Shown piece after piece: positions 8,959 through 22,769 of a stretch of DNA of 64,000 nucleotides. Numbering within the stretch: the stretch's first letter is position 1; the number at the start of each line of letters is the position of its first letter. Under the pieces are notes generated by a model. The model was not told the DNA's origin. It was given only the letters and a program-made list of their open reading frames with translations, and made no database searches. The translations under genes were made by a program, and so were the position numbers. Source of the DNA: Actinomycetes bacterium (GTDB lineage: Bacteria > Actinomycetota > Acidimicrobiia > Acidimicrobiales > Acidimicrobiaceae); contig JAJZFV010000047.1 of NCBI GenBank assembly GCA_021805205.1, forward strand, positions 1 to 64,000, read 5' to 3'.

Positions 8959-8988
8959 TTGCAAGCGAACTCGGATTGTTGTTATACT
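8959..8988 (+). promoter_or_regulatory. Putative sigma70-like promoter of tracrRNA
   Basis: TTGCAA (8959-8964), 18 bp spacer, TATACT (8983-8988), just upstream of the anti-repeat. Confidence 0.6.
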
Positions 8989-8990
8989 GT

Positions 8991-9089
8991 CAAGTGGGTC
9001 TTGAGGAGACTTCCCAGTAAGAGATACAGTTTCGGCTGTATTCTTGAATTCTTCGCCCCCTTCTCGAAAGAGAGGGGGGCTCGTATTTT
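8991..9089 (+). ncRNA. tracrRNA of type II CRISPR-Cas
   Basis: Anti-repeat TTGAGGAGACTTCCCAG (9001-9017) is identical to 17 nt of the CRISPR repeat. It is followed by hairpin ATACAG-TTTCGG-CTGTAT and a GC-rich terminator-like hairpin GCCCCCTTCTC-GAAA-GAGAGGGGGGC (9055-9080) with TCGTATTTT. Lies 65 nt upstream of cas9. Confidence 0.92.
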
Positions 9090-9153
9090 AAGCACCGTCG
9101 AAAATACTTCGTTAAACTAACAAACTGTTACACGACTTCGCTATTGTAAGTTT

Positions 9154-19466: not shown

Positions 19467-22400
19467 CTAGACGTTTCTACGATAGACGCCACCGATTTCG
19501 AATAGGGCATCGGTGATCTGGCCCAAGCTCGCAACTCGCGTTGCCTTCATCAATTCCGCAAAGATATTGCCGTCCTCAAGGGCAACTCGTCGTAGTGACT
19601 CAAGTGCTCGTTCGGCCTCGCCGCGGTGAAGTTCCTTGAAGGCGTTAACTCGGTTGATTTGACCCATCTTTTCATCTTCGGTTGCCCTTGCGAGCTTTAC
19701 CTCTTGGATCACGTTCTCGTTGTCCGTCTCTGACCTAAAGGTATTTACACCGATTATGGGAAGTTCGCCAGAGTGCTTGCGCTCTTCGTAGTACATCGAA
19801 TCGTCCTGGATCTTGCTGCGCTGGTATCCCATCTCCATCGCTCCAAGTACGCCTCCTCGCTCGTTGATGCGCTCCAGCTCCGTAAGTACCGCCTCTTCGA
19901 CGAGGTCAGTCAGCTCCTCGATTACAAAGCTTCCTTGGAGCGAGTTCTCATTCATGGTCATACCCCACTCGCGGTTTATGATCATCTGAATCGCTAGTGC
20001 GCGACGCACAGACTCATCCGTAGGCGTAGTTATAGCCTCGTCATAGGCGTTGGTATGAAGGGAGTTGGCGTTGTCGTAGATCGCACAGAGTGCTTGAAGG
20101 GTAGTCCTGATGTCATTAAATGAGATCTCCTGTGCGTGAAGTGAACGCCCGGAGGTCTGGATGTGGTACTTGAGGCGTTGCGACCTTTCGTTTCCGCCAT
20201 AGATATCCCTTATAGCTATCGACCAGATCCTTCTAGCGACACGTCCAATCACGTTGTACTCGGGATCCATTCCATTAGAGAAGAAGAATGAAAGGTTCGG
20301 GGCGAAGTCGTCGATCTTCATTCCTCTCGCAAGATAAGCCTCCACATAGGTAAATGCGTTCGAGAGGGTAAATGCCAATTGGGTAATTGGATTAGCACCA
20401 GCCTCTGCGATGTGATAGCCCGAGATCGAAACCGAGTAGAAGTTTCGTACGTTCTTCTCGACGAAGTACTCTTGAATGTCCCCCATGACCTTCAGGGAAA
20501 ATTCGGTGGAGAAGATACAGGTATTTTGCCCCTGATCCTCTTTCAAGATATCGGCCTGTACCGTTCCGCGGACGGTACTTAGTACCTCTTTTGAGACCGA
20601 CTGCATCTCTTCATCGGTGGGGTGTCGACCATTTTCCGCCTCGAACTTTTCCAATCTTTGATCGATGGCGGTGTTGAAGAACATCGCCAAGATCGTTGGT
20701 GCGGGGCCATTTATAGTCATCGAGACAGAGGTCTTGGGGTCGCATAGGTCAAAGCCGGAGTACAAAACCTTCATGTCATCGAGTGTTGCGATCGAGACTC
20801 CAGATGTTCCGATCTTGCCATAGATATCGGGGCGAAGATCGGGATCTCTGCCATAAAGGGTAACTGAGTCAAATGCGGTTGAGAGGCGAGTGGCTGGTTG
20901 TCCCTCGGCTAACAGGTGGAAGCGACGATTGGTACGGTATGGGTCACCCTCTCCTGCAAACATTCTGGTGGGGTCTTCATTTCTCCTTCGAAATGGAAAG
21001 ACCCCAGCCGTAAATGGAAAGTGACCGGGAAGGTTCTCTCGTCGTACGAAGGAGTAGATGTCACCTTTGGCTACGTAGTGAGGAAAGCTGATCGAGGGAA
21101 TCTCGTTACCAGAAAGTGATACCTTGTTGTAGTCTTCACTGCGAAACTTATCTAATATTGCCGCCTTTGTTTTTTCGTATTGCTCGATTAGAGCTAATTC
21201 GTCGGAGGTGACCTTTTTGGTCAGCTCTTCGATTCGATTGGCGAGGATCGGAGCCGTCTCGGGCTCTAACTCAGCCGCCTTTGTTAGGGCGTCGAGCGAC
21301 GCTATCAGCCTTGCATTCTCATCCGTCTTGGCGTGATAACGCCGAACCGTAGTTGAGACATCGAGGAGGTAGCGAAGACGATCGTTCGGGATAATTTGTC
21401 GTTCCGCAGTTGAGTGGCGCACTTGCTTTCGTGGTAGAAGGCCGCCACCGAGGTCGCTGCGGCGCTTTTCGATCATCGATGCGATGTAACTATATAGGGC
21501 AGTCATACCGTCGTCGTTGAAGCGTGAAGCTATGGTTCCAAAGACGGGCGCATCCTTAGGTGAAAGGCCGGGCTTGAAGTGCTCTCGTACCCACTGTCGA
21601 GCGACTAAACGAAGGGCATCTTCGCCCCCTCTTCGATCGAATTTATTTATGGCGATGACGTCGGCGTAGTCGATCATGTCGATTTTTTCGAGCTGGCTGG
21701 CGGCGCCAAATTCAGGAGTCATTACGTAGAGGGATAGGTCGGAGACGTTGGTAATTGCGGTATCTCCTTGACCAATGCCTGGTGTCTCAACAATGATCAC
21801 GTCAAAGGCGGCGCCCTTTAGTACCTTTAGGACGTTTTTGGTGTAGTCAGGGATCTCACTTGCCGCTCCGCGGGTAGCTAGTGATCTAAAGAAGATGTTG
21901 GGTGAGTTAATGGCGTTCATTCGAATTCGGTCTCCAAGGAGCGCCCCTCCGCCGCGGCGCCGAGTGGGATCGATAGCAAGGACCGCTATCGATATCTTGT
22001 CTCCGTGGTCGATCCGAAATCGTCTTACCAACTCGTCGGTGAGTGAAGATTTACCAGCACCTCCGGTACCGGTGATTCCAAGCACTACGCTCTGGGGCTG
22101 ATTTGCGATACGCCCCTCTAACTCGGCTATGTACTCCTCGGTAAATTTTCCATCTTCGATGTTTGTTATGGCTCGAGCGATTGCGCCTTTATCTCGAAAC
22201 GAGATGGCGTGGAGCTCTTCGGGGGTGATAGTGGGCATGGGATGGTCCACCTCTTCGATGAGCATATTGATCATCTTTACTAGACCATACTTTTGCCCAT
22301 CTTCTGGGGAGAAGATCTTGGAGACTCCATAGGCCTGTAACTCCGCGATCTCACGTGGAACAATTACACCGCCACCGCCACCAAAAACCTTGATATCAGC

Positions 22401-22673
22401 CTTCTCTTCGCGTAGACGGTCGACCAAGAATTTGAAGTACTCGACGTGGCCACCTTGGTATGAACTAAGCGCGATGCCGTGGGCGTCCTCTTCAATAGCA
22501 GCCTCAACGATCTCTTCCACGGATCGGTTGTGACCTAAATGAATTACTTCAGCGCCCTGGGCCATGAGCAGGCGTCTCATTATGTTGATCGAGGCGTCGT
22601 GGCCGTCGAAGAGAGATGCCGCAGTAATGAAACGCACTGGCCCCTTGGGGCGATAAAGGTCATCGTTATTCAT
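19467..22673 (-). CDS. icmF: Fused isobutyryl-CoA mutase (B12-binding, MeaB-like GTPase, mutase domains)
   Basis: B12-binding [31 protein letters not shown]-loop [14 protein letters not shown]; mutase region [26 protein letters not shown]. Start at internal M (MNNDDLYRP). Confidence 0.92.
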
Positions 22674-22769
22674 AGGATATAAAATAGTCGGAAGTCCTAC
22701 TAATTTCAAGAGATTTTATTTAAATGTCACAACTGAGGACTTCTATCGCTAGCTGGATGTGGGGTGGAG

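Follow-up and report, generated by a model that had tools for sequence, protein, structure and literature searches.

A predicted tracrRNA gene in a type II-C CRISPR-Cas9 locus with an AceCas9-like nuclease

Organization of the CRISPR-Cas9 locus

The analyzed window, a stretch of 64,000 nucleotides, contains a complete CRISPR-Cas9 locus with the gene order tracrRNA, cas9, cas1, cas2 and array. Cas9, Cas1 and Cas2 were all matched. The protein genes and the array are located as follows:

9154..12516, plus strand: cas9, 1120 amino acids, AceCas9-like, RuvC and HNH present
12513..13400, plus strand: type II cas1; the ORF opens at 12450, the likely start is the ATG at 12513, which overlaps the cas9 stop codon
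13387..13710, plus strand: cas2; the ORF opens at 13375, the likely start is the ATG at 13387
13762..18917, minus strand (crRNA strand): CRISPR array with 81 repeats of 36 bp and 80 distinct spacers

Among the ORFs of the window no csn2 or cas4 was found between cas9 and the array. The combination of cas9, cas1 and cas2 without csn2 or cas4, with repeats of 36 bp beside the cas genes, places the locus in type II-C. The catalytic motifs of Cas9 are in place: the RuvC-I aspartate D14 aligns to D18 of AceCas9, and the HNH motif ELDHIVPR is conserved. A gene for RNase III is encoded in the same genome. On the crRNA strand the repeat reads GCTGGGAAGTCTCCTCAAAACCCCCAGCTAGACTTG, and 78 of the 80 distinct spacers have a length of 28 nt. 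Among the 81 copies a single variant repeat occurs, at 17025-17060 (GGGTAATGAGG instead of GGGTTTTGAGG); it lies inside the array, and all other repeats are identical.

Anti-repeat and tail of the candidate tracrRNA

Upstream of cas9 and on the same strand, the following elements were assigned:

8959..8964, plus strand: -35-like hexamer TTGCAA (TTGCAA-18-TATACT, 9 of 12 matches, TG before the -10)
8983..8988, plus strand: -10 hexamer TATACT of the putative tracrRNA promoter, extended (TGtTATACT), at a fixed spacing to the anti-repeat
8996..9018, plus strand: anti-repeat, pairing with nucleotides 1-23 of the crRNA repeat (18 bp, an A.C mismatch at C9000, 4 bp)
9019..9020, plus strand: connecting loop 1 (AA), equivalent to A49-A50 of AceCas9 (PMC7733487)
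9021..9045, plus strand: stem-loop 1, predicted to contain a single bulged A; compensatory changes in relatives
9046..9054, plus strand: connecting loop 2, GAAUUCUUC, 9 nt; G and UCU match G68 and U72-C73-U74 of AceCas9
9055..9080, plus strand: stem-loop 2, an intrinsic-terminator-like hairpin of 11 bp with a GAAA loop, from folding and a terminator scan
9081..9092, plus strand: TCGTATTTTAAG, the T-rich end; 7 of 8 systems have CGT after the hairpin

The core of the anti-repeat, TTGAGGAGACTTCCCAG at 9001-9017, is present exactly in 80 of the 81 array repeats and differs by one base from the remaining one. Apart from the array, the window contains no further copy; 0.23 sites are expected there by chance even if 3 mismatches are allowed. 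A search of the entire assembly (2.62 Mb, 89% complete) gave no additional site outside the array with fewer than 3 mismatches. The exact repeat match reported in the initial annotation was therefore confirmed. The segment 9001-9018 pairs without interruption with the first 18 nt of the repeat, and the final pair is a G-U pair. Beyond the mismatch of crRNA A19 with C9000 four more pairs follow at 8996-8999, which gives a total of 22 pairs over 8996-9018. The continuous 18-bp duplex with its terminal G-U pair described earlier is thus correct, but the duplex does not end there. The sequence complementary to the repeat lies outside of the array and close to cas9, as expected for a tracrRNA.

The predicted fold of the tail agrees with the earlier description of one bulged hairpin followed by an 11-bp terminator-like hairpin with a GAAA loop, and the terminator scan found the latter as well. 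Stem-loop 2 is followed by UCGUAUUUUA, with a short run of T behind the terminator. In the free fold the AA at 9019-9020 pairs with the UU at 9044-9045, whereas the corresponding nucleotides are unpaired in AceCas9. An Rfam scan of the window revealed no tracrRNA-like model above the gathering score; only a tRNA was found. The transcript is predicted to extend from about 8995 to 9092, both ends being predictions from the sequence, so that the previously proposed span of 8991-9089 is right within a few bases. The opposite strand was set aside as a source of the tracrRNA, because promoter, tail hairpins and terminator are all oriented along the plus strand.

Conservation in relatives and the putative promoter

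TracrRNAs with the same plan were identified upstream of cas9 in 7 relatives (G010, G011, G425, G321, G021, G019 and G923), whose Cas9 proteins show 38-86% identity to the Cas9 of the window. They share with it the position upstream of cas9, the AA linker, stem-loop 1, the UCU linker, stem-loop 2 and mostly the CGT; the AAG at connecting loop 1 is invariant in all 7. The tails of G425 and G923 are shorter than in the window. In G021 the cas9 on the tracrRNA contig is limited to its N-terminal part, and a different contig of that genome supplied the repeat. For G923 no repeat was available, and for G010, whose array lies off the contig, the repeat of the window was used.

A plain MAFFT alignment of the tails misplaced the stems, so the elements were arranged according to structure, and cross-pairing of the arms served as the test. 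Each arm in six systems is completely paired with the partner from its own genome, but between genomes only 51% (stem-loop 1) and 79% (stem-loop 2) of the pairing is retained, which indicates compensatory changes in both stems. In the congener G011, TTAT replaces the TTTT of the window repeat, the anti-repeat there likewise shows TTAT, and the duplex continues without that mismatch. Since the change is present in both partners, repeat and anti-repeat have changed together.

In the window TATACT is located 7 nt ahead of the first paired base of the anti-repeat, and for all 7 systems whose repeat could be used, the distance from a -10-like hexamer to the first pairing base is 6-8 nt, independent of the length of the anti-repeat (14-16 or 23 nt). 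As the hexamers of the relatives were selected for the best match in the vicinity, this spacing test is partly circular and is supportive, no proof. The -35-like hexamer TTGCAA is weak when considered alone, with 3 promoter-like sites found versus 1.8 expected.

The anti-repeat comprises 23 nt in four systems and 14-16 nt in three (G425, G321 and G021). One could imagine that a genus-specific promoter, shifted upstream by about 8 bp compared with the relatives with short anti-repeats, extends the native duplex to 22-23 nt instead of 14-16, and that the pairing and trimming of crRNA and tracrRNA have thereby changed in a lineage-specific manner, in an enzyme of the AceCas9 type whose PAM has also changed. 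We regard this as possible, with the chances clearly against it.

Because the predicted tracrRNA end and the cas9 ATG are separated by about 60 bases on the same strand, a shared regulation is possible, and a longer form of the tracrRNA could also repress cas9, as the long form of Streptococcus pyogenes does. However, the only supported start lies directly at the anti-repeat, and a scan of both strands found no upstream repeat-like sequence able to fold back on the anti-repeat; such a form is very improbable.

Comparison with AceCas9 and other known systems

The nearest solved structure to the Cas9 of the window is AceCas9 from Acidothermus cellulolyticus (8d2k, 689 bits over residues 5-1113). 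The proteins align over the full length, and the RNA elements occur in the same order as in the AceCas9 structures (PDB 8d2k, 6wbr). The sgRNA94 of AceCas9 consists of a bulge-free duplex of 12 bp (G21-U32 with A37-C48), AA, stem-loop 1, a linker from G68 to C76 and stem-loop 2; there is a strong requirement for A49, A50, G68, U72 and C73, and position U74 must be U or C (PMC7733487). In the register of AceCas9 the RNA of the window shows AA at 9019-9020, G at 9046 and UCU at 9050-9052. Linker 2 has 9 nt in both RNAs, with G in the first and C in the last position and UCU at positions 5-7. The RNAs differ in that stem-loop 1 comprises 25 nt with a bulge in the window and 17 nt in AceCas9, and the native duplex is predicted to have 22 pairs compared to 12 bp in the truncated crystal construct.

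On the protein side all six residues of AceCas9 that contact the linkers are retained (D48, R830, G835, D971, V972 and R1115, corresponding to D45, R830, G836, D967, V968 and R1099). In contrast, only one of the three PAM residues is kept (R1091, corresponding to R1075), whereas E1044 is replaced by Y1040 and R1088 by P1072. The Cas9 of the window therefore lacks the full residue set for the AceCas9-type PAM NNNCC, and judged from these exchanges its PAM is probably not NNNCC. With six of six linker contacts but one of three PAM contacts retained, the reading of the RNA appears to be conserved and that of the PAM probably not.

The Cas9 of Corynebacterium diphtheriae (CdCas9; PDB 6joo; PMC6488586) also shares the bulge-free duplex, stem-loop 1, a linker read by its bases and stem-loop 2. 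In the structure its duplex is bulge-free and comprises 12 bp, from A21:U48 to G32:C37 (PMC6488586). CdCas9 is more distant (422 bits), its stem-loop 2 is larger and its PAM is NNRHHHY.

These comparisons bear on the proposal of the initial annotation that the bulge-free duplex and the minimal two-hairpin tail are distinctive and may permit a very short sgRNA scaffold. The unbroken 18-bp duplex is indeed among the longest within the sampled relatives, and the duplex of G321 has a bulge of one base and that of G019 an internal loop, so the bulge-free state is a variable trait. But AceCas9 and CdCas9 have bulge-free duplexes and the same two stem-loops as well, and each trait is already contained in a catalogue of 79 Cas9 orthologues, in which one clade has fully complementary duplexes and another only two hairpins (clades X and V; PMC7606464). 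Furthermore, with a 12-bp duplex the scaffold of the window would comprise 90 nt, and is longer than the working 74-nt scaffold of the AceCas9 sgRNA94 (PMC7733487) and the 77 nt of G425. An architecturally unusual tracrRNA is accordingly hardly credible, and neither the unusual design nor the very short scaffold was upheld. Since bulge-free pairing and a two-hairpin tail are usual for this Cas9 branch, the RNA is an ordinary new AceCas9-like tracrRNA and no new design.

Even less probable is a stray or degenerate CRISPR repeat upstream of cas9 that yields no tracrRNA. In favor of it, the match is repeat-like and the case for a tracrRNA is built from sequence; against it, the repeat match stops exactly at the start of the tracrRNA-specific sequence, and 7 relatives retain a promoter element, both stems with their compensatory changes and the invariant linkers.

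Proposed function and surroundings of the array

Taken together, the locus is a complete type II-C CRISPR-Cas9 system with a Cas9 of the AceCas9/CdCas9/AnaCas9 branch, and the region is almost certainly its tracrRNA gene. The earlier identification of a tracrRNA with crRNAs from the minus strand is well supported by position and plan in eight genomes, the -10 spacing, the compensatory stems and the matching Cas9 residues. The promoter at 8959-8988 would start the transcript near 8995-8996, directly at the anti-repeat, and transcription would end after the hairpin at 9055-9080. The anti-repeat would pair with the first ~23 nt of each repeat in the crRNA produced from the minus strand of the array. 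Cas9 would hold this duplex and read the linkers on either side of stem-loop 1 (AA and UCU), and the guide would then direct DNA cleavage by Cas9. The locus provides a clean set of guide RNAs with comparative support from eight genomes for an AceCas9-like group of uncultured actinobacteria. The retained RNA contacts together with the changed PAM contacts are useful for the choice of orthologues; no idea about Cas9 is changed.

Transcription of the crRNAs probably proceeds in part from a -10-like element within each repeat, by analogy to internal promoters in other type II-C arrays (PMC7038990, PMC5052741). The type II-C systems of Neisseria and Clostridium cellulolyticum have a -10-like element at the 3' end of the repeat (PMC7038990, PMC5052741), and in the window TAGACT is located at repeat positions 29-34 of the crRNA strand; relatives show TATACT, TAAACT or TAGAAT there. 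No convincing -35 or extended -10 (TG) was found before TAGACT in the window. As predicted for the window, the array of C. cellulolyticum is transcribed opposite to the cas genes (PMC7038990).

No protospacers were found, either by comparing the 5.1-kb array with phage genomes or by looking in viral contigs for exact matches to 21-mers from three cas2-proximal spacers. No relative of the Cas9 of the window was confirmed in viral contigs.

At 13724-13761 a hairpin of 16 bp followed by GACCT abuts the first repeat beside cas2. A hairpin at this edge of the array is also present in four relatives (L023, L024, L026 and L027). ACCT follows in three of the four; L024 ends with CTCGT instead. The hairpin may mark the end of cas gene transcription, of array transcription or of both, or the integration site. 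In L024 and L026 the degenerate terminal repeat lies at the array end far from cas2, which suggests that new spacers enter at the cas2 side, while the crRNAs would be transcribed towards that side. The usual polarity is the reverse of spacer entry at the side towards which the crRNAs are transcribed.

Beyond the array, a MarR regulator (18939-19430) adjoins a single ORF at 19467-22709, which combines a B12-binding, a MeaB GTPase and a methylmalonyl-CoA mutase domain in an IcmF-like fusion.
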